Shown here one piece after another: positions 64 through 16,330 of a stretch of 50,372 nt of DNA (positions within the stretch are counted from its first letter, which is position 1; every line of letters starts with the position of its first letter). The notes beneath the pieces are model-generated. The model did not search any database and had not been told where the DNA came from. It worked only from the letters and a program-made list of their open reading frames with translations. The stretch is taken from positions 1 to 50,372 of the IMG/VR virus record IMGVR_UViG_3300027836_000015; one strand, given 5' to 3'. Both the position numbers and the translations under genes were made by a program. The DNA comes from a virus.

Positions 64-107
64 GTTAACCTCAACACGCTGTAATCATTGTTAGCGTTGC
101 TATACAT

Positions 108-150
108 TTACAGAACAAATACGACAATCAAATGATAATATAAATGTAAC
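108..150 (+). promoter_or_regulatory. Phage early promoter copy 1
   Basis: TTACA (108-112), AATACGA in the spacer, then TGATAATATAAATGTAAC (133-150). The distance from TTACA to TGATAA is exactly 20 nt, as in all nine copies. It is followed by an A-rich leader and the ATG at 165. A decamer copy (98-107) touches its upstream edge. Start site and recognising polymerase are inferred, not seen. Confidence 0.8.
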
Positions 151-164
151 TAAAAACAAATACT

Positions 165-416
165 ATGACTTTACTAAATCAACAAATTACTTCAAAACAA
201 GACATTAAAGACTTCATTGACTACTTAGCAACTAATGACATGATATATCATTTTGAAGACGATGCTAAAGACATCTATAGCTTTAAATCAGGCTTTGCAG
301 AACGAGCATTCACAGATGAGCAATGTATATTACTAGATCAAAGAACTACTGAAATGCTTAAAGTTGACTCTGAATATTCTTTTGATTATGTACTTGAAAC
401 TTACTTAAACGACTAA
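165..416 (+). CDS. Hypothetical acidic early protein, 83 aa
   Basis: First gene after promoter copy 1, with an A-rich leader (AAAAACAAATACT) and no Shine-Dalgarno sequence, as is usual in Bacteroidota. The protein is acidic, with no signal peptide, membrane segment or cysteine pair. Its middle (GFAERAFTDEQ...LDQRTTEML) and end (SFDYVLETYL) look like helices of a small globular protein. I do not recognise a family with confidence. The next gene starts 6 nt after its stop, so it opens a small operon of three genes (165-839). Its early position suggests a host-takeover role, but that is inference. Confidence 0.75.
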   Translation: MTLLNQQITSKQDIKDFIDYLATNDMIYHFEDDAKDIYSFKSGFAERAFTDEQCILLDQRTTEMLKVDSEYSFDYVLETYLND

Positions 417-421
417 ATACT

Positions 422-604
422 ATGAAAGACTTAACAACTAATGTAATGAAAATTCTAGACTTATTATACGAAGCAAAAGAATTATTAGCGGATATAGACT
501 CTGCTCAAGAAGTAGAAGTACAATATGCTTATCATGCTTTAAAACTAGAAATGCAAGAACGTAATGACTTAACTGAAGAACAAAAACTATTAATTTATAA
601 CTAA
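422..604 (+). CDS. Hypothetical helical protein, 60 aa
   Basis: Second gene of the 165-839 operon, ATG six nucleotides after the preceding stop. The 60 residues are rich in Leu, Glu, Gln and Lys with almost no Gly or Pro (VMKILDLLYEAKELLADID, then LEMQERNDLTEEQKLLI). This predicts two amphipathic helices, possibly a small coiled-coil or dimeric binding protein. No catalytic motif, metal ligands or membrane span are visible. Family not recognised. Confidence 0.7.
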   Translation: MKDLTTNVMKILDLLYEAKELLADIDSAQEVEVQYAYHALKLEMQERNDLTEEQKLLIYN

Positions 605-614
605 AACAAACAAT

Positions 615-839
615 ATGAATTTAATTAAAAACACTGCAACGAATGCAGCAGAACTGTACAAACAACTAAGTAACGGTCGTATGATCTACCACAAGCGTTT
701 AGGACTTGTTCATGTGAACAAAATGGAATTACTAACTAATCCTGCAAGCACATCATTAACGTGCTATACACAAGACGGATCTGACTACGGCATGGACATC
801 GATGAAATCAAAGGATTAATCGAAGCTCGGTTGAATTAG
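615..839 (+). CDS. Hypothetical protein, 74 aa, carrying one decamer
   Basis: Third gene of the first early operon, ATG eleven nucleotides after the previous stop. The sequence is mixed alpha/beta with a short basic stretch (MIYHKRLGLVHVNK) and an acidic helix at the C-terminus (DIDEIKGLIEARL). The decamer TGCTATACAC at 762-771 is read here as Cys-Tyr-Thr, a codon phase different from several other genes carrying it. The gene is followed directly by the 16-bp hairpin at 851-897. Function unknown. Confidence 0.75.
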   Translation: MNLIKNTATNAAELYKQLSNGRMIYHKRLGLVHVNKMELLTNPASTSLTCYTQDGSDYGMDIDEIKGLIEARLN

Positions 840-850
840 TCTATCCAATA

Positions 851-897
851 GTGCGACGTTAGCCTACTATTTCTAGTTTAATAGGCTAGTGTCACAC
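851..897 (+). terminator. 16-bp hairpin followed by a T-rich tract
   Basis: Arms 851-866 and 882-897 pair at 15 of 16 positions (one C-A mismatch, two G-T). The downstream stretch 898-916 is T-rich (TTTATGTTCTTTTCTTTTT). This fits an intrinsic terminator for the 165-839 operon. Its outer 12 bases (GTGCGACGTTAG) nearly repeat the left arm of the start-codon hairpin at 8918, so a protein-binding role is an alternative. A 14-codon GTG frame (889-933) overlaps the right arm. Confidence 0.65.
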
Positions 898-973
898 TTT
901 ATGTTCTTTTCTTTTTGCTATACACTGGCCTGACCCTGAAATAAAGTCGGAAGAGTAGACTCCGCCCTACTCC

Positions 974-992
974 TGCTATACATGCTATACAC
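974..992 (+). repeat. Overlapping tandem decamers
   Basis: TGCTATACAT (974-983) and TGCTATACAC (983-992) overlap by one base, giving two units with a 9-nt period. A third copy is at 916-925. All three lie in the gene-free stretch 840-1070, just upstream of promoter copy 2. The same stretch holds a short hairpin GAGTAG...CTACTC (about 951-973). This is the densest decamer cluster and the best place to test for protein binding. Confidence 0.8.
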
Positions 993-1012
993 CGGATCAC
1001 CTCGATCAACTC

Positions 1013-1055
1013 CTACAGAACGAATACGATACTAAAATGATAATATATATGAATC
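1013..1055 (+). promoter_or_regulatory. Phage early promoter copy 2
   Basis: CTACA (1013-1017), AATACGA, then TGATAATATATATGAATC (1038-1055), with the invariant 20-nt spacing. The in-frame ATG inside the box (1049) is unlikely to be a start; the ATG at 1071 is taken for the short gene that follows. Confidence 0.78.
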
Positions 1056-1070
1056 TAAAAAGTACTAAAT

Positions 1071-1217
1071 ATGAAATTACAACTAAACAACAGCGAAGTT
1101 TCTCAATTAAAAAACCTAATCTTCGATAAAATCGATCAAGTTGGCGGAATTGATATATTATCACCTGAATTACACAACGTTTTGGTGAAATTAAGTACAA
1201 GTATCAAACCTAAATGA
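1071..1217 (+). CDS. Small hypothetical protein, 48 aa
   Basis: ATG lies 16 nt past promoter box 2 after an A-rich leader (TAAAAAGTACTAAAT). Translation gives 48 residues beginning MKLQLNNSEVSQL and ending KLSTSIKPK, then TGA. The sequence is plausibly two helices (EVSQLKNLIFDKIDQ, SPELHNVLVKLS) with no recognised family. The position directly behind a strong promoter copy and the sensible composition support it as a gene. A nested hairpin (1229-1286) closes the unit downstream. Confidence 0.65.
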   Translation: MKLQLNNSEVSQLKNLIFDKIDQVGGIDILSPELHNVLVKLSTSIKPK

Positions 1218-1228
1218 CTGATATACAG

Positions 1229-1286
1229 AGAGATTTCGGGTTGTATCTATCCACTATATTTTCGATACAAACAAAGAGCAATCTCT
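1229..1286 (+). terminator. Nested hairpin abutting promoter 3
   Basis: AGAGATT (1229-1235) pairs with AATCTCT (1280-1286), and inside it TTGTATC (1241-1247) pairs with GATACAA (1264-1270). The element ends one base before the TTACA box of promoter copy 3 (1287). It probably ends or processes the short transcript from promoter 2. No long U-tract follows, so Rho-independent termination is not certain. Confidence 0.55.
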
Positions 1287-1329
1287 TTACAACAATAATA
1301 CGATTACCTAATGATAATATAAATGTAAC
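1287..1329 (+). promoter_or_regulatory. Phage early promoter copy 3
   Basis: TTACA (1287-1291), AATACGA, then TGATAATATAAATGTAAC (1312-1329), spacing 20 nt. The -10-like box is identical to that of copy 1. It drives the gene run starting at 1354. Confidence 0.8.
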
Positions 1330-1353
1330 AATAACAAACTAATACAATTAATT

Positions 1354-1452
1354 ATGAGAAGATTTAACGATGCATTCAGAGTGGTATTTTTTAGAGTGAG
1401 AAAAGAGTTCTTAATTGGGGCTAAAAACGCTGCGTTAGCGCTAAAAAGTTAA
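1354..1452 (+). CDS. Very small basic protein, 32 aa
   Basis: ATG follows promoter copy 3 and an A-rich leader. The 32-residue product (MRRFNDAFRVVFFRVRKEF, then LIGAKNAALALKS) has about seven Arg/Lys and one Asp/Glu pair and a hydrophobic core. It could be an amphipathic, nucleic-acid- or membrane-contacting peptide. The next ATG is 7 nt after its stop. It is supported by position and spacing only; no homologue is recognised. Confidence 0.5.
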   Translation: MRRFNDAFRVVFFRVRKEFLIGAKNAALALKS

Positions 1453-1459
1453 TATAGTT

Positions 1460-1726
1460 ATGATACATACTAAAGAAGTGAGTGAACAGCTCCATAAAAT
1501 GATAAGTAAAATGACCGGTTTACAGTGGATCGATGTGTCTTATTGTAATGACGAGTGTGATTCTATAGAAAATGTAGAATTAGATAGAATGATATTTTTA
1601 CCTAACTTTACAGAGTTCACTACGTTTTCAATGATTACGGCTAGTGAGTACGGGGCGTGTAACGATACTAAAGAATATAACAACTTGATAGATTTAATTA
1701 AAGATATAGATAACTTAAAACAATAG
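1460..1726 (+). CDS. Hypothetical protein, 88 aa
   Basis: Part of the run 1354-2722 behind promoter copy 3. The N-terminus is helical (MIHTKEVSEQLHKMISKM), followed by WIDVSYCNDECDSIENVEL with Cys-x3-Cys, and an acidic C-terminal helix (NLIDLIKDIDNLKQ). The pattern of alternating strand and helix suggests a compact alpha/beta fold. No family recognised. Stop and next start are 4 nt apart, indicating translational coupling within the operon. Confidence 0.72.
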   Translation: MIHTKEVSEQLHKMISKMTGLQWIDVSYCNDECDSIENVELDRMIFLPNFTEFTTFSMITASEYGACNDTKEYNNLIDLIKDIDNLKQ

Positions 1727-1730
1727 TAAA

Positions 1731-1964
1731 ATGGTAGAAAATAGAATTAGCGCCTTATTAGGTATAAGTGAGTTTGGTTTAGATATTAATGTATTCTACA
1801 ATGTTTCGGTGTGTCAAACCGATATATCATTGCAAGGCTATATGAATAGAGATACTGTAGATATGTTGTCTAAATTCGGTGTTACTTTGACTAGTGCAAA
1901 TAACGGATTTTTATACGGCGAATTCTATGTGCAAGGTGTAAAGTTTAGAATAGTATTAACTTAA
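1731..1964 (+). CDS. Hypothetical protein, 77 aa
   Basis: Four nucleotides after the previous stop in the promoter-3 operon. The protein is mostly predicted beta (FYNVSVCQTDISLQGY, VTLTSANNGFLYGEFYVQG, VKFRIVL), which suggests a small beta-sheet domain. There are no catalytic residues, signal peptide or membrane span to point to a function. Confidence 0.7.
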   Translation: MVENRISALLGISEFGLDINVFYNVSVCQTDISLQGYMNRDTVDMLSKFGVTLTSANNGFLYGEFYVQGVKFRIVLT

Positions 1965-1976
1965 TAAATAGCGTAT

Positions 1977-2186
1977 ATGGAAAAGTTATTAAAATTAACA
2001 TTGAACACGGGTAAACCTATATTAATAGGCGTTGAAAGTATTATTAGCGTTAAAAGCGCTGTGGTAACAAGCACACAAGGTGTTAAAACAGAGTGTACCG
2101 AGGTATTCTGTAGAGGAGCGATGGCTATAACTTATTGGGTTACCGAAAGCGTAGATGAAGTATATAATCAATATAAAACAAAGTAA
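1977..2186 (+). CDS. Hypothetical protein, 69 aa
   Basis: Fourth gene of the promoter-3 run. Residues such as KLTLNTGKPILIGVESIISV and a later CTEVFCRG..ITYWVTESVDEVYN suggest a small SH3-like or LytTR-like beta-barrel ending in a short helix. The start 'TGKPILI' with 'V-ES-I' resembles small phage beta-barrel proteins of unknown function. No firm assignment is made. Confidence 0.68.
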   Translation: MEKLLKLTLNTGKPILIGVESIISVKSAVVTSTQGVKTECTEVFCRGAMAITYWVTESVDEVYNQYKTK

Positions 2187-2189
2187 AGT

Positions 2190-2303
2190 ATGAGTTTAGA
2201 AAGTAATTGCTGCGGCGCTAGCGAATGGCTAGAAGATACAGGCATATGTTCTCAGTGTTTAGAGCATGCGGATTTTGACGACGACGAAGAAGATGAAAAT
2301 TAA
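2190..2303 (+). CDS. Mini zinc-ribbon-like protein, 37 aa
   Basis: Starts 3 nt after the previous stop. The 37-residue product has NCCGAS near the N-terminus and GICSQCLEH in the middle, i.e. a Cys-Cys pair and a Cys-x2-Cys pair that could bind one zinc, and then a strongly acidic tail (DFDDDEEDEN). Short CCGA...G-x-C-x2-C proteins are frequent in phages of many hosts, function unknown. The acidic tail could mimic DNA or bind a basic partner, which is inference. Confidence 0.65.
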   Translation: MSLESNCCGASEWLEDTGICSQCLEHADFDDDEEDEN

Positions 2304-2321
2304 TAACTAATAAAGTAAATT

Positions 2322-2492
2322 ATGGCAATGTACAAAGTAACAATAATAGAGACCTTAAGTAGAGTAGTAGAGGTTGAAGCATCTGACGAACATTACGCAG
2401 AGCGAATAGTTAAAGATAGATACTGTGATGAAGAAATAGTATTAGATTACGGGGATTTTGATGAGGTTGATTTTATAGTATATAAAGATTAA
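2322..2492 (+). CDS. DpnD/PcfM-like small protein, 56 aa
   Basis: The product MAMYKVTIIETLSRVVEVEA continues with SDEHYAERIVKDRYCDEEIVLD. This matches the pattern of the DpnD/PcfM-like C-terminal domain: Y-x-V-x-I-x-E-T-L, a strand V-x-V-x-A, a helix, then Y..EIVL. Such proteins occur in phages, plasmids and next to a restriction system, role not established. Domain order is one strand pair, one helix, and a C-terminal strand (DFIVYKD). It lies in the promoter-3 operon, and the next gene starts 2 nt after its stop. Confidence 0.62.
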   Translation: MAMYKVTIIETLSRVVEVEASDEHYAERIVKDRYCDEEIVLDYGDFDEVDFIVYKD

Positions 2493-2494: not shown

Positions 2495-2722
2495 ATGAGA
2501 TACTATGATTTCCCAATAGAACAATATACTAACCCGTGCTTTCCTGATGTGCCATACTACAAGTGTGCTATACACGGAGAACAATACCACACGTCCGCTC
2601 TTGATCAAATTATAGCGTGGCGTAAAGAAATGGTTGATACCACTGAATACCGTGTTCAAGCTAAAATAGTTACTGACATGGCTATGGAAACATTTATGAA
2701 GGATGTAAAGATTAAAGATTAA
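2495..2722 (+). CDS. Hypothetical protein, 75 aa, carrying one decamer
   Basis: Last gene of the promoter-3 operon, immediately before the tRNA-like element. The N-terminal half has CFPDVPYYKCAIHGEQYH, with Cys and His residues that could form a small metal site. The C-terminal half is helical (TTEYRVQAKIVTDMAMETFMKDV). The decamer at 2566-2575 is read here as Ala-Ile-His. The overlapping long minus-strand frame in this region is a shadow. Function unknown. Confidence 0.72.
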   Translation: MRYYDFPIEQYTNPCFPDVPYYKCAIHGEQYHTSALDQIIAWRKEMVDTTEYRVQAKIVTDMAMETFMKDVKIKD

Positions 2723-2810: not shown

Positions 2811-2853
2811 TTACAATCTAAACACGATAGCGAATTGATAATATATATGAAAC
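2811..2853 (+). promoter_or_regulatory. Phage early promoter copy 4
   Basis: TTACA (2811-2815), AACACGAT, then TGATAATATATATGAAAC (2836-2853), spacing 20 nt. It begins 9 nt after the tRNA-like element. It shows that an ATG inside the box (2847) should not be used as a start for the next gene. Confidence 0.8.
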
Positions 2854-2867
2854 TAAAAACAACAACT

Positions 2868-3047
2868 ATGAAAAAAATTAAATTTTTAAAGTACAATCTA
2901 ATCAAAGTCAACGGCGTGCTATACACACCATACGCGGTCGGCGATCTACCGCAAAGCTTTGGATTTATATTCAACAGCGATAAAGATCAAACCGGTATCG
3001 CACAGTGGTTCAATTTCAAGGGTCTAACTTATATAATCAAACCGTAA
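2868..3047 (+). CDS. Hypothetical protein, 59 aa, carrying one decamer
   Basis: The start at 2868 (MKKIKFLKYNLIKVNG) is chosen because the longer frame from 2835 would begin inside promoter copy 4; the leader AAACTAAAAACAACAACT has the usual A-rich form. The protein is small and basic with aromatic residues (FGFIF, QWFNFKGLTYII), compatible with a beta-rich fold. The decamer (2917-2926) is read as Leu-Tyr-Thr. Stop and next start are adjacent (TAATATG). Family not recognised. Confidence 0.7.
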   Translation: MKKIKFLKYNLIKVNGVLYTPYAVGDLPQSFGFIFNSDKDQTGIAQWFNFKGLTYIIKP

Positions 3048-3949: not shown

Positions 3950-4126
3950 ATGACAAAAGAACAATTAGCATTTCAAGAAGCATTAGCATTCGAAGTATGG
4001 ATGCGCGACACAGTAAAAACCGTACACTATGCGGATAACGATAAGATGGCTAAAGCCTACGATAGAGTATTTAATAATAGCTTAGAAATTAAAGTATATG
4101 AGAATATTAAAACAAAAAGAGCTTGA
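3950..4126 (+). CDS. Hypothetical helical protein, 58 aa
   Basis: ATG at 3950 lies 2 nt after the previous stop. The product MTKEQLAFQEALAFEVWMRD continues to ...NIKTKRA. It is almost wholly helical, with an aromatic patch (FEVWMRDTVKTVHY). Its last 29 nt overlap the start of the next gene in another frame, so the two are probably translationally coupled. Family unknown. Confidence 0.6.
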   Translation: MTKEQLAFQEALAFEVWMRDTVKTVHYADNDKMAKAYDRVFNNSLEIKVYENIKTKRA

Positions 4127-4319
4127 CTTAGTTAGACTAGCGGTGCTTGAAGGAATATTAGAAACACAAAATAAATTGCGTATTGACTTTAAGATTAGAG
4201 AATCTGATTTAACTCTTCATCAAACAATAAGACTTGACAGTATTACTGATTTGCTATACACCCTACTTTGCGAAGTTGTTGAAGAAAATGGGGTCTTACA
4301 GTCTGAATACGAACTATAA
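4098..4319 (+). CDS. Hypothetical protein, 73 aa, carrying one decamer
   Basis: Overlaps the end of the previous gene by 29 nt. There is no later in-frame ATG, so this start is kept. The product is helical (LDLVRLAVLEGILETQNKL and SITDLLYTLLCEVVEEN), and could form a coiled coil or helical bundle. The decamer (4252-4261) is read as Leu-Tyr-Thr. The end of the gene runs into promoter copy 5. Function unknown. Confidence 0.65.
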   Translation: MRILKQKELDLVRLAVLEGILETQNKLRIDFKIRESDLTLHQTIRLDSITDLLYTLLCEVVEENGVLQSEYEL

Positions 4320-4338
4320 TTGATAATATAAATGTAAC
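4296..4338 (+). promoter_or_regulatory. Phage early promoter copy 5
   Basis: TTACA (4296-4300), AATACGA, then TGATAATATAAATGTAAC (4321-4338), spacing 20 nt. Its upstream half overlaps the last codons of the preceding gene, showing that the boxes are kept even at the cost of coding freedom. Confidence 0.8.
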
Positions 4339-4352: not shown

Positions 4353-4637
4353 ATGATAAACTTAAAAAAAGAATTTAGCACTGTACAATTCAGAAAATTT
4401 GTAGGCAATGATGGAAAGTTATTTAGCGTAACTTTTGAAAAAAAAGATGGTAGCTTGCGTACTATGACCGCAAGATTAGGTGTAAGAAAGTATTTAACCG
4501 GCGGCGGATCAAAATTTGATGCTGAGCCACGAGGTATGGTAAGAGTATTTTCAATGGGCGATTTAGGCTATCGTACTGTAACCGCTGAAAAGATTATTAA
4601 GTTAAAAGCTTATGGTAGAGTATTGAATCTACAATGA
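4353..4637 (+). CDS. SH3-barrel protein resembling DUF2693, 94 aa
   Basis: The central FSVTFEKKDGSLRTMTARLG matches the pattern of small SH3-barrel proteins common in Bacteroidota genomes and their phages (F-x-KKDG-x-R-x-M). It is followed by GVRKYLTGGGSKFD and a second strand pair ending in YRTVTAEKIIKLKAYG. The family is predicted to fold as an SH3-like barrel; its role is not established, and nucleic-acid or protein binding is plausible. It is alone behind promoter copy 5 and followed at once by promoter copy 6, so it is a single-gene unit, which suggests a strongly regulated product. Confidence 0.65.
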   Translation: MINLKKEFSTVQFRKFVGNDGKLFSVTFEKKDGSLRTMTARLGVRKYLTGGGSKFDAEPRGMVRVFSMGDLGYRTVTAEKIIKLKAYGRVLNLQ

Positions 4638-4671
4638 TAACACGATATAAAAATGATAATATAAATGTAAC
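4629..4671 (+). promoter_or_regulatory. Phage early promoter copy 6
   Basis: CTACA (4629-4633), AACACGAT, then TGATAATATAAATGTAAC (4654-4671), spacing 20 nt. The upstream box overlaps the end of the SH3-barrel gene. The leader after the box (CAATAAAATTTAATAAA) resembles that of copy 5. Confidence 0.8.
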
Positions 4672-5807: not shown

Positions 5808-6032
5808 ATGAATGTAAATCTAATCGAGAAATTAGAGGTTGACAGTAGCGCTATTTCAGAAGTGTCTTACTATCCAAACGTAGAAAGATTGTTTGTTCTA
5901 TTTAAGAACGGCAGAGAGTACGAGTACTTTAACGTACCTAGCCATGTAATGAATGGTTTACGTGAAGCACCATCTAAAGGTAAATTCCTTAACAAATACG
6001 TTTTAGCTTTCTATCGATTCAAGAAAGCGTAG
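5808..6032 (+). CDS. KTSC domain protein, 74 aa
   Basis: Residues 9-70 match the KTSC domain pattern: VDSSAISEVSYYP, then LFVLFKNGREYEYFNVP, then LREAPSKGKFLNKYVLAFYRF. The VDSSAI start, NG-x-x-Y-x-Y-x-V-P core and APSKGKFLN motif are typical. KTSC domains are found alone or fused to nucleic-acid enzymes such as lysyl-tRNA synthetase-like proteins and phage proteins, and may bind nucleic acid; function is not proven. It is the last gene before the structured RNA region; its stop overlaps the decamer at 6033. Confidence 0.85.
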   Translation: MNVNLIEKLEVDSSAISEVSYYPNVERLFVLFKNGREYEYFNVPSHVMNGLREAPSKGKFLNKYVLAFYRFKKA

Positions 6033-6344
6033 TGCTATACACGGTTGTCTCACATGAGTGGTATAGAGGCCGTGTTATAACCATTTGAGACGAACAACGC
6101 GCCTAAGCTAGCAGGTAACAAAGCGGGCAGGCATTAACCTGGGAGCAAATGGAATCGTGGGAAACAGCACGTAATGCTGAATGAAATGTTGATTATTTCG
6201 GGGTTACGTAAACATTGTCCAATCAGTGCTGGTTGGTTGTAATCGAAACGCAAATAAAGTAGTAACCGGCTTGCGGATCAACTAAGAACTAGCGCTGGGC
6301 CAGCAACCGACGGGTTAAGGGGGTTCGAATCCCCTTCTAGTTCC
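6033..6344 (+). ncRNA. Candidate structured RNA ending in a miniature cloverleaf
   Basis: This 310-nt gene-free stretch is more GC-rich than its neighbours and dense in complementary arms. GTTG and TCTCA (6044-6052) pair with TGAGA (6086-6090) and CAAC (6095-6098). ACGTAA pairs with TTACGT around a GAAAT/ATTTC hairpin. At the 3' end GAACTAG (6286-6292) pairs with CTAGTTC (6337-6343) and encloses hairpins GCTG-GGC-CAGC, AACC-GACG-GGTT and AAGGGG-GTTCGAAT-CCCCTT. The last is a near-perfect T-arm. The closed 58-nt unit is too short for a tRNA. I find no tmRNA tag frame and no group I intron core. Not matched to a known RNA class. Confidence 0.6.
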
Positions 6345-6357: not shown

Positions 6358-6570
6358 ATGAGTAGAACAATTAAAAAAGCAAAAAAAGTGGTAGCCAAGT
6401 CTTGCAGAAATAACGGCGGATGCCCAGTATGTGAAGGTAATCGTTTACATAAGCATAATAAAAAGATAGAAGCAATATTAAATGCAACAAAAGAATTGCG
6501 AAATAATGTATTTAAAGATTTATTAATTTATGGAAAAGCAACTTACAGTCTAAACACGATTAAAGAATGA
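6358..6570 (+). CDS. Small basic Cys/His protein, 70 aa
   Basis: A very basic N-terminus (RTIKKAKKVVAKSCR) precedes GGCPVCEGNRLHKHNKK, giving Cys16, Cys22, Cys25, His31 and His33 as possible zinc ligands. Proteins with a C..GG-C-P-x-C-x-x-N-R pattern occur in many phages, of unknown function; nucleic-acid binding is likely by charge. The C-terminus is helical and ends within promoter copy 7. It is not an HNH nuclease, since no Asn-His catalytic pair follows. The leader just follows the structured RNA. Confidence 0.68.
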   Translation: MSRTIKKAKKVVAKSCRNNGGCPVCEGNRLHKHNKKIEAILNATKELRNNVFKDLLIYGKATYSLNTIKE

Positions 6571-6585
6571 TAATATAAATGTAAC
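6543..6585 (+). promoter_or_regulatory. Phage early promoter copy 7
   Basis: TTACA (6543-6547), AAACACGAT, then TGATAATATAAATGTAAC (6568-6585), spacing 20 nt. It overlaps the last nine codons of the preceding gene. It leads the run 6601-8814. Confidence 0.8.
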
Positions 6586-7266: not shown

Positions 7267-7848
7267 GTGAAACAATTAACAAACGATCAACTAATAGAGG
7301 TAAACAATAATCTAGACAATTATTTTGCATTGGCCACTGACAGAGACATTGACAATGGTATCGCATGGTATAAGCAGGCACATTATATTTGTAAGGATCT
7401 AGCTAAGCAATACAATACTACAACAGAAGTTGTTGCAAGTATTATTAGTGCATTGTCCCCGCGAAACAGATGGCCACAAAACATCAAAGATACCGTAACG
7501 GTGTTAGGTGCTATACACGAAAATCGCTCGCCTGATGATGTTAAAGTTTGCACGTTCCATAAAAATAAGCACAAAGCGTTCTTATTAGGTAAAAAACAAG
7601 CTAAAATAACTGATGATAGCTTAAAAACGTTTAACTTTGTAAAAAACATTGCTCACTTAGACGAAAGCAACGTTACAATTGACGTGTGGCATTTGCGCGC
7701 ATGCTTTGGTAAAACAATTAAAAGTTCTCCGGGTAGACGTGCATACGATCAAATTAGATTATTAACCATAGCCAAAGCAGAAGCTAAAGGCCTAAAAGGT
7801 TTTGAGTATCAAGCAATTATATGGAATTCAGTAAAAAACAATTTTTAA
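7267..7848 (+). CDS. Phage protein, possibly HhH-GPD glycosylase-like, 193 aa
   Basis: A GTG start, 2 nt after the previous stop, is the first start in frame. The protein begins with helices (WYKQAHYICKDLAKQYN), then VVASIISALSPRNRWPQN, KTFNFVKNI, and at residues 136-144 VTIDVWHLR. This order of 'ALSP..W..N', 'NF..NI' and 'V-T-I-D-x-W-H-x-R' is typical of a phage family seen in many marine phages. The V-[TD]-x-[HD]-x-x-R element resembles the catalytic segment of helix-hairpin-helix DNA glycosylases (Asp139 would be the candidate). That link is inference; the protein is otherwise of unknown function. The decamer (7509) is read as Ala-Ile-His. Confidence 0.68.
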   Translation: MKQLTNDQLIEVNNNLDNYFALATDRDIDNGIAWYKQAHYICKDLAKQYNTTTEVVASIISALSPRNRWPQNIKDTVTVLGAIHENRSPDDVKVCTFHKNKHKAFLLGKKQAKITDDSLKTFNFVKNIAHLDESNVTIDVWHLRACFGKTIKSSPGRRAYDQIRLLTIAKAEAKGLKGFEYQAIIWNSVKNNF

Positions 7849-8817: not shown

Positions 8818-8860
8818 TTACAACATTAACACGATAGCCTTGTGATAATATAAACGTATA
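8818..8860 (+). promoter_or_regulatory. Phage early promoter copy 8
   Basis: TTACA (8818-8822), AACACGAT, then TGATAATATAAACGTATA (8843-8860), spacing 20 nt. The end of the box is slightly divergent. It precedes an unusually long leader (about 98 nt) that contains the start-codon hairpin at 8918-8966. Confidence 0.75.
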
Positions 8861-8917: not shown

Positions 8918-8966
8918 GTGTGACGTTAGGTCCTTAATATAATAAAATAGCAAGCTAATGTCATAC
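8918..8966 (+). promoter_or_regulatory. Hairpin sequestering the start codon at 8958
   Basis: GTGTGACGTTAG (8918-8929) pairs at all 12 positions, two as G-T, with CTAATGTCATAC (8955-8966). The right arm contains the ATG (8958-8960) of the next gene, so folding would hide the start codon. The left arm matches 11 of 12 bases, and the right arm 10 of 12, of the hairpin at 851-897. Differences between the copies keep pairing. This fits a translational operator or a DNA operator; binding partner unknown. Confidence 0.65.
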
Positions 8967-9581
8967 AGAGAACGTAACCTAGAATATTTAAACAAAAGAC
9001 GAGTGATATACCGACGAGCGCCGATTAATGATAAACCAACCGCTGAATTTGAATGGGGTAACTTCTACGAAGACGGTACAACAGAATGTTATGAGCTATT
9101 CAGAAGCAAAGCTAAAATACCAACATATAAGGCATTGAAATGGCATTTGTATGTTATATGGTATCTTAATCAAAACATGGATCAGAATGAGTTTGAAACG
9201 ACTGCGCGGCATATATGTAACAAAGATAATGGTTTTGTAACATTCAATGTCAGTGAGCAATTATTACAGAACATGATGTACGATGTATCTTTGCAAGATC
9301 TTGAATCCCCTCCTCATAATAAATCTAGGAAGATTATATTTAAGGACAATAGCGGTTTAAGTCTTACTGAGAAGTTATCTATAGTGGGGCAAATGATTGG
9401 TAAAACTAAGAAAGTTACTGAGTCAGATATTTACGATGCCATGCTATACACAAATGATCTTGGTAAAAAAATAACTATTAAAGCCCTTGCAGAACACTTT
9501 GATTGTACAACAAGAACAATACATCGCAACATGGGTAATGAACTAAAAAAAGAAAAAGAAATCCTAAACCAAAATTTATGA
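8958..9581 (+). CDS. Putative replication or regulatory protein with C-terminal HTH, 207 aa
   Basis: The N-terminal two-thirds is unfamiliar, with a basic start (YRERNLEYLNKRRVIYRR) and helical segments. Residues near 170-195 (KITIKALAEHFDCTTRTIHR) form a helix-turn-helix of the kind found in regulators and replication initiators. The start codon lies in the 8918-8966 hairpin, so the gene may be autoregulated at translation. A second copy of that hairpin at 851-897 would then be a second target. The decamer (9442) lies in the gene. It sits before the sigma factor and recombination block. A regulator or initiator role is inferred. Confidence 0.68.
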   Translation: MSYRERNLEYLNKRRVIYRRAPINDKPTAEFEWGNFYEDGTTECYELFRSKAKIPTYKALKWHLYVIWYLNQNMDQNEFETTARHICNKDNGFVTFNVSEQLLQNMMYDVSLQDLESPPHNKSRKIIFKDNSGLSLTEKLSIVGQMIGKTKKVTESDIYDAMLYTNDLGKKITIKALAEHFDCTTRTIHRNMGNELKKEKEILNQNL

Positions 9582-10143: not shown

Positions 10144-10410
10144 ATGACAGCAGTAAAATGGTTAGAAAAAAAACTTGTTGAAAGTGGAATTAATTTTCTT
10201 TCAGAAGAAGTTGAGTTTATTGAACAAGCAAAAGAAATGGAGGAACAACAACAAGATGATTTTGCTATTGGATTTGCAGAGTGGAGTTCATTTTATAGAG
10301 AAAAAAATAGAAACCATAAACTGGATATGTTACATTCAAAAAGTAAGTATGATGAAAGTTATACTACAAAAGAACTATTAGAAATATATAAAAAAGAACA
10401 AAAACTATGA
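10144..10410 (+). CDS. Longer paralogue B of the KELLEIYKKE family, 88 aa
   Basis: Longer relative of 9578-9763. It has an extra N-terminal helix (AVKWLEKKLVESGINFLSEE) and a coiled stretch (EQAKEMEEQQQDDF), then FAIGFAEWSSFYREKN and YTTKELLEIYKKEQKL. It shares exact DNA repeats with its paralogue (10261-10275 with 9656-9670; 10363-10398 with 9716-9751). That implies recent duplication or conversion across the intervening gene. Stop overlaps the sigma factor start (ATGA). Function unknown; small helical partners of host proteins are one possibility. Confidence 0.75.
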   Translation: MTAVKWLEKKLVESGINFLSEEVEFIEQAKEMEEQQQDDFAIGFAEWSSFYREKNRNHKLDMLHSKSKYDESYTTKELLEIYKKEQKL

Positions 10411-11189
10411 AAAGTTACAATTTACCCAATTACATAAGGTACAAAGAAGACGTTAAAGAATCAAATAAAGATAGTGTATCAAACGACTTTCGTTCATATT
10501 CTAGAGATAAGCTAATTGTTAAATTCCTACCATTAGTAGAGAATATTGCTAGAAAGTTTTCCACTACTACACAAGCATGTGGCGTTTTAGATATTACAGA
10601 TCTTACACAATACGGTTCCATAGGCCTTGTTCAAGCAATTGATAAAATAGAGTGGGATACAATTAAAGACAGTGATAATCAAGAATCAACATTAAAATCA
10701 TTCCTATCTAAAAGAATTAAAGGCGCTATTAGACGAGCAATAGACATTAATAGGGGTAGTATACGTATTCCAGAGTATAAGTTAACTGAGATGCGCAAAG
10801 ATCCTGATAATACTAAAATGGTTGAAATGTTCTTTAATAGCGTATTTCAAAGTTTAGATGTAGATTTTGATAGTTCCGATACTAACTTCATGGATACAAC
10901 AACTTTTGATGCTCGGCCTGTTTTTGAGGATACTACTAAAGAGTATAACATAGATATTATGAATGCTTATTTATTAAGTTTGTTTCAAAAATATTTAACA
11001 GTCACAGAAGCCGATGTGTTAAGATTAAGCTACGGATTAGATTGTGGTAAACATTCCGCAAATGAAATAGCAGACTATCTAGGTCTTGAAGGGGCAAGCT
11101 CTTACGTTAGGATTTCAGAAATAAAAAAGCAAGCAATACAAACATTGATCAATAATGTAGATCCCTCTCAAGTCTTTGATTACCTATAA
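10407..11189 (+). CDS. Phage RNA polymerase sigma factor, sigma-70 type
   Basis: The 260-residue protein has sigma region 2 at about residues 35-115 (LPLVENIARKF, then DLTQYGSIGLVQAIDKIEWD, then RIKGAIRRAI). The DLTQ-x-G-x-x-GL-x-x-A pattern is the region 2.2 core. A C-terminal region 4 at about 195-250 holds a helix-turn-helix (YGLDCGKHSANEIADYLGLEG, then RISEIKKQAIQTLI). It would redirect host core RNA polymerase to phage promoters. The nine identical-spacing promoters, none on the minus strand, are candidate targets, though they also precede the gene itself, so host sigma might use them first. It overlaps the previous gene by 4 nt. Confidence 0.88.
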   Translation: MKSYNLPNYIRYKEDVKESNKDSVSNDFRSYSRDKLIVKFLPLVENIARKFSTTTQACGVLDITDLTQYGSIGLVQAIDKIEWDTIKDSDNQESTLKSFLSKRIKGAIRRAIDINRGSIRIPEYKLTEMRKDPDNTKMVEMFFNSVFQSLDVDFDSSDTNFMDTTTFDARPVFEDTTKEYNIDIMNAYLLSLFQKYLTVTEADVLRLSYGLDCGKHSANEIADYLGLEGASSYVRISEIKKQAIQTLINNVDPSQVFDYL

Positions 11190-11285: not shown

Positions 11286-11864
11286 ATGGCAAAAACAGAA
11301 GAAAATGTACAAGAAACTCTAGAGAGAGATTTCACGCTTACCGAAAAGTTAGCAATAATACAAACTGAGTTTAAATCTAAAAAGTCTAGATTCAATTCAT
11401 TTGGTAAATATAACTTTAGATCTGCTGAAGATATACTCGAAGCTACTAAACCGTTTTTATTACGTTTTGGCGTGTCAGTAACGGTTACAGAGCAATTAGT
11501 TGAATCAAATCAATTATTCCCTATACTAAAGTCTACAGCAACAATTTCCGATGGCGATGGTGCTATACACGCGGTAGCAATCGTTGGGATTGATCTTGAT
11601 CAAAAAGGAATGCAAATGCCACAGAAGTTTGGATCAGCATCAAGTTATGGTAAAAAGTATGCATTAGGTAATCTATTCTTAATAGATGATACTCAAGACG
11701 CGGATCATGGTAAAGCAGAGCCCGTTGCTAAAGCTCAATTAACACCAAACGACGCAGCCTTTGATAAAGCAATGCAATTTGTAGTAAACGGCGGTAAGCT
11801 TGATACAATTAAAGCTAAGTATGAATTATCTCCAGAAGCTGAAGTAATACTAGCTAAACTCTAA
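11286..11864 (+). CDS. erf: ERF-family single-strand annealing protein
   Basis: The 192-residue protein matches the ERF superfamily of phage recombinases. The N-terminus has TEFKSKKSRFNSFGKYNFRS, the usual 'K...N.FGKY.YRSAEDI' element, and the centre has KFGSASSYGKKYALGNLF then LIDDTQDAD, the 'G-S-A-x-[ST]-Y-x-x-[KR]-Y-A-L...DD' signature. ERF proteins form rings that anneal complementary single strands, used for recombination-dependent replication and genome circularisation. The decamer (11561) is read as Ala-Ile-His. Next gene starts 1 nt after the stop; exonuclease and SSB follow, forming a classic recombination module. Confidence 0.88.
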   Translation: MAKTEENVQETLERDFTLTEKLAIIQTEFKSKKSRFNSFGKYNFRSAEDILEATKPFLLRFGVSVTVTEQLVESNQLFPILKSTATISDGDGAIHAVAIVGIDLDQKGMQMPQKFGSASSYGKKYALGNLFLIDDTQDADHGKAEPVAKAQLTPNDAAFDKAMQFVVNGGKLDTIKAKYELSPEAEVILAKL

Positions 11865-11865: not shown

Positions 11866-12600
11866 ATGACTAAAGAAGAAATAATAGAGAAGTTAAAAAA
11901 TGATGAGCATTATTATGGCGAGATGGGTAAAAACTTTTTAAGCAATTCAAATATATCTGCGTTGCTTACTAATCCAGCATTAATGAATGCTCCTCAAGAT
12001 CCTAATCCTAATTTTGTAATTGGCGGTTATTTCCACACCGCCATTCTTGAACCTGATAAGTTACATAAGTACAAAATTATTAAAGCATCCACTAGAAATA
12101 CTAATATATATAAAGAAGCATCTGGAGGTGAAATATGTCTGCTGCAACACGAAGTTGACCGAATTGAACTAATGAAAGATACGATGCTCGCTAATAATAT
12201 ATGCAAAGATCTTATACGTGGTTTTAATGTTGAATATGAAGTTCCTGGCATTGTAGAATTATTTGGTACAATGTGGAAAGGCAAAGCAGATATATTAAAT
12301 CACGACGAAGGATTGATTGTAGATCTTAAAACAACATCTAACATTGCGGACTTTGCTTATTCAGCTAAGAAATACAATTATGATAGCCAAGCATATATTT
12401 ATAAGAAGTTGTTTGGATATGATATGATTTTTATGGCAATAGATAAAGGAACACATCAGATAGGTATATTTGATTGTTCAGATAAATTTCTACAAACAGG
12501 CGAAGACAAAGTTATGCGAGCAGTTGAAGCCTACGATTTATTTTATAAAACAGAGGATTTTGATCCTCAACAATTTCTAATTACTAAAACCCTTAACTAA
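11866..12600 (+). CDS. PD-(D/E)XK exonuclease, RecE or lambda-exo type
   Basis: The 244-residue protein has a fold-typical order. It contains NPNFVIGGYFHTAILEP (the G-x-x-x-H helix near residue 57), then MWKGKADIL with Asp142, GLIVDLKTT with Asp153-x-Lys155, and YDSQAYIYKKLFG as the QxxxY helix. These are the motifs of the PDDEXK_1 family exonucleases related to RecE. It would degrade one strand from a double-strand end and hand the exposed single strand to the adjacent ERF protein. This pairing mirrors Red alpha/beta and RecE/T. It starts right after the erf stop and ends 18 nt before the SSB-like gene. Confidence 0.85.
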   Translation: MTKEEIIEKLKNDEHYYGEMGKNFLSNSNISALLTNPALMNAPQDPNPNFVIGGYFHTAILEPDKLHKYKIIKASTRNTNIYKEASGGEICLLQHEVDRIELMKDTMLANNICKDLIRGFNVEYEVPGIVELFGTMWKGKADILNHDEGLIVDLKTTSNIADFAYSAKKYNYDSQAYIYKKLFGYDMIFMAIDKGTHQIGIFDCSDKFLQTGEDKVMRAVEAYDLFYKTEDFDPQQFLITKTLN

Positions 12601-12617
12601 AACAAAAAACGAGAATT

Positions 12618-12938
12618 ATGGCAAGTATTATTAAAGCGAGTATCAATTTGAATGAAATTCCAAAGCACAAAATTATTGATGGAAAGAAAGGTAAGTATTT
12701 ACCTATCACAATAACAATCAATGATGATGTTGATCAGTTTGGGAATCAAGGACCAGTGATGGTTGAACAATCTAAAGAAGAGAGAGATGGAAAAGCAGCA
12801 AAAGTATACCTTGGAAATGTTAAAGTGGTATGGACGAACGGCACTAATGTTGATGTTGCGCCCCGAACTGATTCAGGTCAACAAGCACAAGCTCCTGCAC
12901 AACGAGCTCCGGCTCCGATCGATGATCTCCCGTTTTAA
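12618..12938 (+). CDS. SSB-like single-stranded DNA-binding protein, 106 aa
   Basis: The N-terminal 70 residues form an OB-fold-like series of strands (ASIIKASINLNEIPKHKI, KGKYLPITITINDDV, KVYLGNVKVVW). A disordered Ala/Pro/Gln-rich linker leads to the tip DDLPF. That acidic phenylalanine tip is the hallmark of SSB C-termini, which recruit host replication and repair proteins. It is shorter than bacterial SSB (about 150-180 aa). Context with ERF and exonuclease supports a recombination and replication SSB. The first palindrome copy (12934-12954) begins inside its last codons, so its 3' end is part of a regulatory or origin-like zone. Confidence 0.85.
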   Translation: MASIIKASINLNEIPKHKIIDGKKGKYLPITITINDDVDQFGNQGPVMVEQSKEERDGKAAKVYLGNVKVVWTNGTNVDVAPRTDSGQQAQAPAQRAPAPIDDLPF

Positions 12939-12986
12939 GGTTATAGCCTTAAAATAAAATTAAACTTTAAGGTTATAGCCTTAAAA
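12933..12986. repeat. Two near-perfect palindromes, 32 bp apart
   Basis: TTTAAGG-TTATAG-CCTTAAA occurs at 12934-12953 and again at 12966-12985. Each has 7-bp arms, 18 of 20 positions palindromic, and a central TATA. Twenty-one bases are shared exactly. The first copy overlaps the SSB stop codon. Spacing of 32 bp (about three helical turns) suits cooperative binding by a dimeric DNA-binding protein. As RNA each could also be a hairpin. Confidence 0.75.
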
Positions 12987-12994
12987 AATATAAA

Positions 12995-13040
12995 GCAGGA
13001 CGAACTCTAGACAGCAAAAGCAGGATTTAGTCTGGACAGC
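12995..13040 (+). repeat. Two iteron-like direct repeats
   Basis: GCAGGA-N5-TCT-N-GACAGC is present at 12995-13015 and 13020-13040, with a 25-bp period and 15 of 21 bases identical. The repeats follow the palindromes and precede an intrinsic terminator. Direct repeats next to SSB and primase-helicase genes are compatible with a replication origin. No DNA-unwinding element is clear, but the AT-rich stretch 12951-12994 lies beside them. Confidence 0.55.
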
Positions 13041-13055
13041 TTTATGTAGTTAGTT

Positions 13056-13078
13056 AAACCCCATTAATTGGGGTTTTT
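13056..13078 (+). terminator. Intrinsic terminator
   Basis: AACCCC (13057-13062) pairs with GGGGTT (13070-13075) around loop ATTAATT and runs into TTTTT (13074-13078). It is a clear Rho-independent terminator ending the recombination operon, 23 nt before promoter copy 9. Confidence 0.85.
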
Positions 13079-13100
13079 CTATCTATAATTAGTAATGATC

Positions 13101-13143
13101 TTACAATCAAAACACGATTGTATATTGATAATATATATGTAAC
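13101..13143 (+). promoter_or_regulatory. Phage early promoter copy 9
   Basis: TTACA (13101-13105), AACACGAT, then TGATAATATATATGTAAC (13126-13143), spacing 20 nt. It is the last copy and lies ahead of the replication and nucleotide operon, which has no further copy up to 21107. The ATG inside the box is not used. Confidence 0.8.
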
Positions 13144-13162
13144 AATCAAATAAACAAAAAAA

Positions 13163-13510
13163 ATGCAAGCAGAAACAAAGAAATGTGATAAATGCAAAGA
13201 AATAAAACCTATTACTAAATTTTGTAATAACAAGGTTAATAATAAAATATATCCTAGAAAATCTTGTAATACTTGTAGAGTAAATAAAATTAAAAAAACC
13301 GGATTTTATTATGTTTATTATTTGCCAAACGAGCATTATTGCGGTAGAACAAATTCTTTAGTTTTAAGGATGATAGATCATAGAAAAACAGGTAAAAATA
13401 CTGAAAACTATAAAGTATTATATACTAGCAAAGATAAAAAAGATGCTTGTTATCACGAAGCGTTATTCCAATCAACTTTAGCAATGGAAGGATTAGCTAT
13501 AACAAATTAA
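13163..13510 (+). CDS. Zinc-ribbon plus GIY-YIG nuclease-like protein, 115 aa
   Basis: The N-terminal Cys8-x2-Cys11...Cys35-x2-Cys38 knuckle (CDKC, CNTC) is the small DNA-binding ribbon seen in front of phage homing nucleases. It is followed by a GIY-YIG-like core: YVYYLP (residues 50-55) for GIY, HYCGRTN (58-64) for YIG, Arg69, His73 and a Glu99 candidate acid in YHEALF. The invariant Gly of GIY is altered, but the spacing is retained. It is probably a free-standing homing endonuclease or a phage-encoded DNA nuclease next to the primase-helicase. Start follows promoter copy 9; stop is 5 nt before the helicase ATG. Confidence 0.72.
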   Translation: MQAETKKCDKCKEIKPITKFCNNKVNNKIYPRKSCNTCRVNKIKKTGFYYVYYLPNEHYCGRTNSLVLRMIDHRKTGKNTENYKVLYTSKDKKDACYHEALFQSTLAMEGLAITN

Positions 13511-13515
13511 ATAAA

Positions 13516-15225
13516 ATGGATATAAATAATACAGAAATAAATGGTTTTCAAATAAATGAATTTAATATTTATAATTTAGAAGCAGGAAAAACAAGTGGTA
13601 TTTGTCCTTTGTGTTCAGTTGATAGAAAAAACAGCAATAAAACCGCTAAATGTGCTTCTTATGACTGGGATAAAGGATTAGGTACATGCCATAACTGCAA
13701 CAAAACATTTCAATTGCATACGTATCAACGCAAAGGAGCAAGTGAAAAAATATATACAAGACCAACATCAACATTAGTTCCTGCAACCTCAAAAGTTGTT
13801 GAATGGTTTAACAATAGAGGAATATCAGAACAGACATTAACAGACTTACAAGTTACAGAAGGGCCTGAGTTCATGCCTCAGACCGGTAAAACAGAAAACG
13901 CAATACACTTTAATTATTTCATTGGCGATCAACTTATAAACGTAAAATACAGAGATGGACACAAACACTTCAAATTATTCAAAGGAGCTGAAAAAGTATT
14001 TTATAATATTAATAGTATTGTTGGTTTTGAATATTGCGTTATTGTTGAGGGAGAAATGGACGTGCTTGCATTGCATGAAGCCGGTATCACAAACGCAATC
14101 TCAGTACCAAATGGAGCCACATTAGGCACAAACAATCTAGAATATCTGGATAACTGTATTGATTATTTTGACGACAAAACAAAGATCATTATTGCGGTTG
14201 ATTCAGATGCAGCAGGTCAAGCATTACAAACTGAGTTAGTTAGAAGATTAGGATCAGAAACATGCTACATTGCAACCTTTGATGATTGCAAAGATGCAAA
14301 CGAATATTTAATTAAGTATGGTAAAGAAGCATTATCCCAAAGAATATCAAGATCAAAGCCCGTGCCACTTGAAAACGTTACTACGTTTAGAGACATTGAA
14401 GATGAAGTTACAGACTTTGTTAGAAATGGTTTCAAACCCGGTTTCCAAATTGGCTTGTCTAATTTTGATGATATTTTTTCTACGTACACTGGCCAATTCA
14501 TTACTGTTACCGGTATACCATCTTCTGGTAAATCTGATTTTGTAGATCAAATGGTTATTGGTTATAATGAAAAGTACGGCTGGAAAACAGCATATGCATC
14601 ACCCGAGAATCATCCAACATATTTACATGCTCACAAGTTAATGCGTAAAACATGGCAAGGTATGCCCGGCGTTGAAGATATTAAAACTGAAAAGTGGAAT
14701 CAAGTTGCTGATCATGTTAATGACAACTATTTCTTTATTGACATGGAACGTTATACATTAGAATCTGTACTGCGTAAAGGCGCAGAGCTAGTTAAACGTA
14801 AAGGAATTAAATGCTTAGTTATTGATCCATTTAACAAGGTAAGATCTAACGATGCGTCCGGTGATGTTAATGTTTATACATTAGAATACTTAAGTCAAAT
14901 AGAAATCTTTGCTAAAAAATACGATGTGCTTGTAATGGTTGTTGCGCACCCTACTAAAATGTATAAAGACAGTAGCGGCAAGATTGAAGAACCTACAATG
15001 TATAATATCAAAGGGGGCGGCGAATGGTATGATGCATCTTATCACGGTTTATTAGTGCACAGAGACTATGAAAACAAAACTGTTAAGGTTAAAGTATTAA
15101 AGTGTAAGTTTCAAAACCTTGGAGAGAATGGTGCTGAATGTCATTTTGTATGGGAGCCAGCGTCAGGTTGTTTTATTCCACACTTTCCAGCAGTTAGTAA
15201 TGATTCAAAACTACCATGGGAATAA
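13516..15225 (+). CDS. T7-type primase-helicase (569 aa)
   Basis: The start at 13516 (MDINNTEINGF) is preferred because the longer frame from 13447 overlaps the GIY-YIG gene; the ATG has an A-rich leader. Domains in order: zinc ribbon Cys30-x2-Cys33...Cys58-x2-Cys61; TOPRIM domain with VIVEGEMDVL (about 176-184) and AVDSDAAG (227-234); DnaB-like helicase with Walker A GIPSSGKS (333-340), Walker B CLVIDPFN (433-440), and VVAHPTK (475-481). This is the gp4 architecture that primes and unwinds DNA at the fork. It leads the operon that continues to the ribonucleotide reductase. The DNA polymerase it should couple to is not seen in the window. Confidence 0.92.
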   Translation: MDINNTEINGFQINEFNIYNLEAGKTSGICPLCSVDRKNSNKTAKCASYDWDKGLGTCHNCNKTFQLHTYQRKGASEKIYTRPTSTLVPATSKVVEWFNNRGISEQTLTDLQVTEGPEFMPQTGKTENAIHFNYFIGDQLINVKYRDGHKHFKLFKGAEKVFYNINSIVGFEYCVIVEGEMDVLALHEAGITNAISVPNGATLGTNNLEYLDNCIDYFDDKTKIIIAVDSDAAGQALQTELVRRLGSETCYIATFDDCKDANEYLIKYGKEALSQRISRSKPVPLENVTTFRDIEDEVTDFVRNGFKPGFQIGLSNFDDIFSTYTGQFITVTGIPSSGKSDFVDQMVIGYNEKYGWKTAYASPENHPTYLHAHKLMRKTWQGMPGVEDIKTEKWNQVADHVNDNYFFIDMERYTLESVLRKGAELVKRKGIKCLVIDPFNKVRSNDASGDVNVYTLEYLSQIEIFAKKYDVLVMVVAHPTKMYKDSSGKIEEPTMYNIKGGGEWYDASYHGLLVHRDYENKTVKVKVLKCKFQNLGENGAECHFVWEPASGCFIPHFPAVSNDSKLPWE

Positions 15226-15561
15226 ATGGCAAGGCAACCTCCAATAGACATGGGTAATTATATTTATTCTGCTAAAGAACAGTTAGCTTATTTATGGTGT
15301 ATTAGAAATAATATATACATATCGCCAAAAGCTTTAAGTTCAATTGAATGGTTTATATGTATCGTTATAAACGGCAAAGAAAATATAAGTCCTGAAGCTT
15401 ATAAGAAGACAGATATATGGAAACAAATATATAAATTTTATACATATTATTATGATAAATACAATAAAGAATTAAAAGAAGAGAAAATAACCGTTGTAAA
15501 AAAAGAACCATTACTTCGGCAGCAAACAACAAATAGCGCCGATAATTTAAAACTATTTTAA
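15226..15561 (+). CDS. Hypothetical protein, 111 aa
   Basis: ATG directly follows the helicase stop (TAAATG). The N-terminus (ARQPPIDMGNYIYSAKEQLAYLWCIRNN) and the middle (SSIEWFICIVINGKENISPEAYKKTDIWKQIYKFYTYYYDKY) are aromatic and helical. A charged tail with LKEEKITVVKKEPLLRQQ follows. It may be a small helper of the replication complex by position, but no motif supports this. Confidence 0.7.
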   Translation: MARQPPIDMGNYIYSAKEQLAYLWCIRNNIYISPKALSSIEWFICIVINGKENISPEAYKKTDIWKQIYKFYTYYYDKYNKELKEEKITVVKKEPLLRQQTTNSADNLKLF

Positions 15562-15562
15562 T

Positions 15563-16330
15563 ATGACAAAGTACGAAGCACAATACAAAGAATTACTTAA
15601 CAAGTGCCTGAATTCCGATACACAAAGAGCGGATAGAACAGGTGTTGGCTGTAACTCAATATTCAATGCTAGTCTAAGTGTAAATCTCAACGATGGCTTT
15701 CCATTAATAACAGGCAGAAAAATGTTTCAAAAAACTTTTGATACAGAGTTTGAATGGTTTATAAATGGCGAAACAAACATTAAAAGATTCCAAGAAGCTG
15801 GCGTAAGGATATGGGATGCTTGGGCAGATGAGAATGGTGATCTTGGACCTGTGTATGGGCATCAAATGCGCAATTTTAATGATCAAAATATAGATCAGAT
15901 GCAAATAGTTATTAAACAATTAATTGATGATCCAGACAGCCGTAGGCACATTATAAGTTTATGGAATCCTATTCAGTTAGATCAAATGCGATTGCCTCCA
16001 TGTTATTTGTATTTTCAATTCTTTGTGGATAATAACAAACTTAATATGTTTGTACTACAAAGATCAGGCGATATGTTTTTAGGTATACCTTATGACATGG
16101 CATTATTCTCAAAAATATTGTTATATGTATCAAGCAAGGTTAATTTAAAAGCAAATAGAATAGATGTGCAGATAATTGATGCACACATTTACGCCAATCA
16201 ACGCGATGCTATACATAAATATCTCAATCAAGAAACTTTTCAGTCTCCAGACTTCGTTTACGAAAACGGAGCATTAACCTTGATAAATTATAAACACGGC
16301 CCAATAATTTCAGCAAAAGTGGCCATTTAA
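15563..16330 (+). CDS. Thymidylate-synthase-family enzyme, probably dCMP-specific
   Basis: The 255-residue protein keeps the thymidylate synthase core: WADENGDLGPVYGHQ (about 87-101), LPPCYLYFQFFV with catalytic Cys147, LQRSGDMFLGIPYD (165-178), DAHIYANQ with His208 and Tyr210, and C-terminal KVAI. Asn177 of Escherichia coli thymidylate synthase, which selects dUMP, is replaced by Asp (Asp178, GIPYDMALF). The same Asn-to-Asp change marks dCMP hydroxymethylases such as T4 gp42. The product is therefore predicted to act on dCMP and make 5-methyl- or 5-hydroxymethyl-dCMP, not dTMP. The two cannot be told apart here. The family match is firm; the substrate call is an inference. The decamer variant (16207) is in the gene. 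Confidence 0.85.
   Translation: MTKYEAQYKELLNKCLNSDTQRADRTGVGCNSIFNASLSVNLNDGFPLITGRKMFQKTFDTEFEWFINGETNIKRFQEAGVRIWDAWADENGDLGPVYGHQMRNFNDQNIDQMQIVIKQLIDDPDSRRHIISLWNPIQLDQMRLPPCYLYFQFFVDNNKLNMFVLQRSGDMFLGIPYDMALFSKILLYVSSKVNLKANRIDVQIIDAHIYANQRDAIHKYLNQETFQSPDFVYENGALTLINYKHGPIISAKVAI

Follow-up and report, generated by a model that had tools for sequence, protein, structure and literature searches.

The stretch of DNA analysed here, the whole of which we call the window (50,372 bases, IMG/VR virus record IMGVR_UViG_3300027836_000015), is a podophage fragment with relatives that infect Flavobacteriia, and it carries dispersed copies of an asymmetric decamer, TGCTATACAY (hereafter the word). 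Its terminase is closest to that of MW202828, an uncultured podophage (64%), followed by those of Flavobacterium elemo phages and Cellulophaga phages (<60%); relatives in IMG/VR number in the hundreds (at least 482 stretches), the full-length ones being mostly 60–68 kb. The two arms of the window meet convergently near 21.1 kb. The plus-strand arm holds early and replication genes (sigma factor, ERF, PDDEXK nuclease, primase/helicase, thymidylate synthase, MazG and ribonucleotide reductase), and the minus-strand arm holds late structural genes, with a gene for a protein of 3058 amino acids (aa) at its end; a conserved leader gene is truncated by the left edge. The gaps between early genes reveal a long conserved promoter, TTACARnnTnAAYACGA-N7-TGATAATATAnATGnAA (also written with the 3' element TGATAATATAnATG), of which nine copies occur in the window (Table 1). 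In one clade the early promoter takes the form ACGGACTTA-N18-GATAATATAnATGAA, so that the upstream box is clade-specific (TTACA..ACACGA or ACGGACTTA) and GATAATAT is constant. The phage-encoded sigma-70-like factor, whose gene is core to the family, might read these promoters.

The word occurs 13 times on the plus strand of the window and once on the minus strand, and every coordinate given in a first-pass annotation of this DNA is correct: ten plus-strand copies of TGCTATACAC and one on the minus strand, and three plus-strand copies of TGCTATACAT. Dinucleotide shuffles yield 0.29 copies for the whole window (maximum 2 in 100 shuffles), in keeping with the annotation's estimate of far less than one, and allowing one mismatch adds only 4 sites, none of them within the cluster. 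Nine of the 14 copies lie within genes, the intergenic ones being those at 98, 916, 974, 983 and 6033. When codons were shuffled synonymously, a procedure that preserves every protein as well as codon usage, the nine in-gene sense copies compared with a mean of 0.73 and a maximum of 4 in 1000 shuffles, and there are no in-gene antisense copies. The excess therefore holds against a codon-matched model, the comparison that the first-pass annotation had named as capable of overturning its claim. As that annotation also stated, the in-gene copies occupy all three codon phases (one in phase 0, four each in phases 1 and 2), and the lone minus-strand copy is sense to its host, the 3058-aa gene. The two kinds of shuffle exclude chance and codon composition as the source of the word, and the repetition is confirmed as a real observation.

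Table 1. Copies of the word, early promoters and the sigma factor gene in the window (ORF, open reading frame).
Feature	Position	Strand	Context
Word, TGCTATACAT	98..107	+	abuts TTACA box of first early promoter (last base directly precedes TTACA); putative operator context
Word	762..771	+	sense, within ORF 615-839, codons C-Y-T
Word	916..925	+	upstream of promoter at 1039
Tandem word pair, 974 TGCTATACAT and 983 TGCTATACAC	974..992	+	46-65 bp upstream of GATAATAT at 1039
Word	2566..2575	+	sense, within ORF 2495-2722, codons A-I-H
Word	2917..2926	+	sense, within ORF 2835-3047, codons V-L-Y-T
Word	4252..4261	+	sense, within ORF 4098-4319, codons L-L-Y-T; 61 bp upstream of GATAATAT at 4322
Word	6033..6042	+	immediately 3' of stop codon of ORF 5808-6032
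Word	7509..7518	+	sense, within ORF 7267-7848 (DUF7178 family)
Word	9442..9451	+	sense, within core 207-aa gene 8958-9581 containing a helix-turn-helix (HTH), codons M-L-Y-T
Word	11561..11570	+	sense, within ERF recombinase gene 11286-11864
Word, T form	16207..16216	+	sense, within thymidylate synthase gene 15563-16330
Word	23937..23946	-	sense, within 3058-aa late gene, codons V-L-Y-T; about 2.7 kb from its 3' end, arm convergence
Early promoter	108..150	+	GATAATAT at 134; conserved TTACARnnTnAAYACGA-N7-TGATAATATAnATG
Early promoter	1013..1055	+	GATAATAT at 1039
Early promoter without word	1287..1329	+	GATAATAT at 1313
Early promoter	2811..2853	+	GATAATAT at 2837
Promoter	4296..4338	+	GATAATAT at 4322
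Promoter	4629..4671	+	GATAATAT at 4655
Promoter	6543..6585	+	GATAATAT at 6569
Promoter	8818..8860	+	GATAATAT at 8844
Promoter	13101..13143	+	GATAATAT at 13127
Sigma-70-like factor gene	10407..11189	+	Pfam Sigma70_r2 and PHROG sigma factor

The annotation had suggested looking for the word in related phages, and dozens of them do conserve it. It was found in 39 of 40 relatives scanned whole and in 20 of 30 in a second scan that counted the variant TGCTATACGY as well, with a reversed control near zero; genomes carry about 7–20 copies, and in many the word ranks at or near the top of the over-represented strand-specific 9-mers. Pooled over 27 relatives, the codon-shuffle test gives 177 sense copies versus 20 expected and 41 antisense copies versus 2.75 expected, and ten relatives without the word give 2 versus 0.9. 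An alignment of 190 non-redundant sites (non-redundancy was set by flank similarity, which lowers phylogenetic dependence and does not eliminate it) shows information dropping sharply at the edges of TGCTATACAC, with no motif beyond 10 bp. Among ortholog pairs of 50–90% identity, considered only where the amino acids under the word are kept, 266 of 458 cases (58%) have identical DNA, as against 12%, 15% and 31% for control windows within these genes whose codon degeneracy is high, middle and low, respectively. Together with the codon-shuffle excess, this supports the earlier claim that selection acts on the nucleotide sequence. That claim was said to fail should relatives lose the sites freely while keeping the amino acids, and here the outcome is mixed: sites do turn over, the amino acids at the word position differing in most ortholog pairs, but where they are kept the DNA is retained far above the controls.

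Close lineages that lack the word, about ten in number, are nested among those that bear it, and the terminase tree requires at least three gains or losses. The set of words is gained or lost as a whole, which points to a single trans-acting factor. We also considered whether wordless relatives carry substitute words: those listed for G036, G043, G044 and G050 are repeats that resemble those encoded in late structural genes, and those for G040 and G045 are self-palindromes or local simple repeats. Among the relatives so checked, only MW202828 (L189, 20001-60850), the nearest relative in GenBank, has a genuine different element. It lacks TGCTATACAY and carries 14 copies of the palindrome GTGTCGTTAACGACAC in its early arm, from 23747 to 35156, most often in gaps some 30 bp ahead of early gene starts.

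At early promoters the position of the word, just ahead of the TTACA box, is constrained and its orientation is not. Across relatives the edge of the word lies mostly 26–31 bp upstream of GATAATAT, with a second mode at about 41–47 bp; in such a listing of promoter distances some copies (e.g. that at 2566) look antisense through a wrong choice of ORF, the ORF calls being mechanical. Canonical words at promoters stand 21 in the same and 22 in the opposite orientation, and at orthologous early promoters the word is largely reversed in G019, G022 and G023 and forward in G025. Doubled words 11–13 bp apart are common at the promoters of relatives; in L273, L283, L285, L297 and L307 the leader words are paired in tandem at this distance, roughly one helical turn, and the in-gene copies are single. 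A family of small leader proteins (FVIRKS..G motif) has been amplified to 2–4 copies per genome in G019, G022, G023 and G025, most with a word-bearing promoter of their own. Composites of promoter plus word in IMG/VR fall almost wholly within relatives of the family, although the search patterns include the family's own promoter.

Away from promoters the orientation of the word follows transcription, as the annotation had claimed. Relative to the early strand, and counting non-redundant sites, the copies in the early body run 56 with and 2 against (p 1e-14) and leader copies away from promoters 34:7, whereas promoter-associated copies run 23:27; late-arm copies run 14:6. Several of the relatives' contigs are fragments, and coordinates taken relative to the sigma factor gene presuppose circular joining. 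Orientation, then, is free at promoters and is not free inside transcription units. The body copies are also over-regularly spaced, at 1–2 kb: in nine divergent genomes the coefficient of variation is 0.46 versus 0.77 in simulation (standard deviation 0.085, P 2e-4), with one spacing below 500 bp where 10.5 are expected, and a larger, non-independent set displays the same regularity. In the window, every interval between promoters that exceeds 900 bp contains at least one word.

Taking these observations together, we propose, tentatively, that TGCTATACAY could quite well be the asymmetric site of one DNA-binding protein, serving as an operator at promoters and as a polar block to elongation inside operons. 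One sequence-specific protein, active during infection, would bind the word; at early promoters it would lie beside or across the TTACA box, the upstream, -35-like portion, where either orientation would suffice and where tandem pairs of sites are frequent. Within the early units, isolated copies at about one per 1–2 kb would be polar sites at which the elongating RNA polymerase halts or is slowed, such that early transcription would be shut at initiation and elongation together, and run-through at the convergence of the arms may likewise be stopped by the word. The same DNA-binding protein accounts for both contexts if occupancy of a promoter blocks it either way round and the elongation block is polar. 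There is precedent for this combination, since with dCas9 elongation is blocked in a single orientation and promoters are repressed in both, and the elongation block by Rap1p is orientation-dependent (PMC10310618). The annotation listed candidate roles and proposed no single mechanism; among those roles, a transcription-coupled signal fits best, although the placement of the word in either orientation upstream of early promoters had been missed.

A number of observations weigh against this proposal. The variant TGCTATACGY stands at promoters 21 times in the opposite orientation and once in the same, where an orientation-free operator predicts otherwise. No phage gene family tracks the presence of the word across 27 word-bearing and 10 wordless genomes, and the core DNA-binding candidates (the 207-aa HTH protein and a 149-aa candidate of the late arm) have no residue that separates the two sets. 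No match to an HTH_3 repressor was found in 30 genomes, though a repressor of another fold may be present, nor any integrase, tyrosine and serine recombinases being absent from the same 30. Last, the geometry of the sites also agrees with a role in activation or loading.

In such a positive role the word would be bound by an activator beside early promoters, and within genes it would serve an elongation or antitermination complex for loading or against pausing. With its centre about 33 bp upstream of the -10-like element, the word falls close to where class II activators usually bind, the regular spacing would suit repeated reloading, and the repressive sign of the effect in our proposal is one that we infer. 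However, most of the nine promoters in the window have no immediately adjacent word and word-lacking relatives retain the same promoters, so that the word is not required for promoter retention, and no NusG-like factor was found in the 30 genomes. We consider a positive factor unlikely.

It is less probable still that the sense copies are read in the mRNA, for processing, stability or antitermination. The strongly sense bias of the in-gene copies, their occurrence in all codon phases and their even spacing would agree with an RNA element. Yet of the copies at promoters about half are antisense and precede the transcription start by a fixed distance, so these cannot act in that transcript, and the sites have no conserved flanks or extension. 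A nut/boxA antitermination site, which works within the transcript and would hence always be sense and lie beyond the start, was rejected on account of those antisense copies and the lack of a NusG-like factor in the 30 genomes.

Comparably improbable is a replication or recombination signal (primosome, initiator or phage Chi-like) oriented with a fork that leaves the divergent early region. A fork starting in the leader would match the orientation, TATACAC at the core of the word is similar to a DnaA box, and late-arm words lie mostly in the early-arm orientation in G035, G037 and G063, which are also carriers of DnaA domain IV. An origin would, however, predict a single switch of orientation, whereas the orientations interleave in the leader and flip between orthologous promoters. 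The DnaA box TTATNCACA is an asymmetric 9-mer with a similar TAT-N-CAC core, and E. coli DnaA blocks transcription at asnC, but the box differs from the word at its first bases (T versus TGC). Phage DnaA_C proteins (PF08299) occur in just 5 of 50 genomes (G035, G037, G058, G063 and G065). We therefore reject both the word as a general phage DnaA box and a phage DnaA-like protein as its general binder. The primase or initiator site and the RNA site put forward by the annotation are disfavoured, since ahead of conserved early promoters the word keeps a fixed distance and stands either way round.

That the word is itself a promoter of the extended -10-like type TGnTATA, as its reading TG-C-TATAC could suggest, is very improbable: a different and much longer promoter element exists, and the 190 sites show no second conserved element at a fixed spacing, on which ground a stand-alone sigma-type promoter was rejected. 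A host Chi site, which the annotation had also entertained, or another signal borrowed from the host genome is the least credible of all, for although Chi is likewise an oriented, over-represented short word and the phage density of about one word per 5 kb is Chi-like, the word sits at promoters, occurs in 60 Flavobacteriaceae genomes about once per Mb, as often as the reversed-pattern control, and in Bacteroidota metagenome-assembled genomes (MAGs) is concentrated on a small number of contigs, one of them the phage contig G074:C28; host Chi is rejected for the genomes sampled.

The protein that would bind the word may come from the host or from the phage, in the latter case as a core protein or as the product of a small or rapidly changing gene. 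Structural models of the 207-aa HTH protein (predicted local distance difference test, pLDDT, 86.6) and of the leader protein (pLDDT 84.9) have no significant match in the PDB, and literature searches for the word returned unrelated matches only. In the late arms of most relatives (e.g. G001 12413-14217), the GroEL and GroES genes adjoin a small candidate DNA-binding protein, a region that falls beyond the end of the window. In a check for prophage forms, matches in genome collections were nearly all MAG contigs, and no phage in culture that bears the word came to light. Two irregular assemblies were also encountered. Contig G038 (129,537 bases; L170-L176) holds two distinct full family gene sets, sigma factor and portal genes being present twice each, and is possibly a chimera or two joined phages; a family portal gene inside CP070801 (L210), supposedly the chromosome of an Aenigmatarchaeota MAG, is probably an assembly or binning error.

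The closest known system is that of the operators and oriented, elongation-blocking stoperators of cluster A mycobacteriophages such as L5 and Bxb1, bound by Gp71-type repressors (PMC6550527, PMC9283540). The repressor of that system is encoded by the phage and is a monomer with an HTH and a stoperator domain. Like the word, the stoperator is a short asymmetric site repeated genome-wide, with some copies in early promoters (where repression by the word is our inference) and the non-promoter copies oriented with transcription. The two differ in length (10 bp versus 13–14 bp), in copy number (about 7–20 versus 20–30) and in location, the word lying mostly in coding sequence and stoperators in short intergenic gaps. 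Unlike stoperators, promoter copies of the word stand in either orientation, and unlike the temperate stoperator phages, which have an integrase or parABS, the family yielded neither an integrase or resolvase nor an HTH_3 repressor in 30 genomes; the host group, too, is Bacteroidota. Given these absences and the position of most sites within genes, the word falls outside the mycobacteriophage stoperator family, and the lack of an HTH_3 repressor and an integrase in these 30 genomes means that a lysogeny role of the stoperator type is missing. The Rap1p and dCas9 roadblocks share with the word the orientation-dependent block proposed here, and dCas9 also the orientation-free repression of promoters, but they are eukaryotic or engineered and, unlike the word, form no lattice of sites in a single genome.

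With somewhat greater reserve than for the site itself, we suggest that integrase-free podophages of Bacteroidota may possess a two-level transcription-control lattice, operated by one phage or host factor, separate in origin from the mycobacteriophage stoperators and devoted to lytic timing. Cluster A mycobacteriophages have known elongation-blocking lattices, which there serve the maintenance of lysogeny. If true, a lattice of this geometry in flavobacterial phages that are common and apparently free of integrase would make the halting of RNA polymerase inside genes a broader means of timing phage genes, and would offer a natural test of the one-directionality of elongation blocks. A conserved set of promoters has, moreover, been obtained for a family of phages in which transcription had otherwise not been charted.

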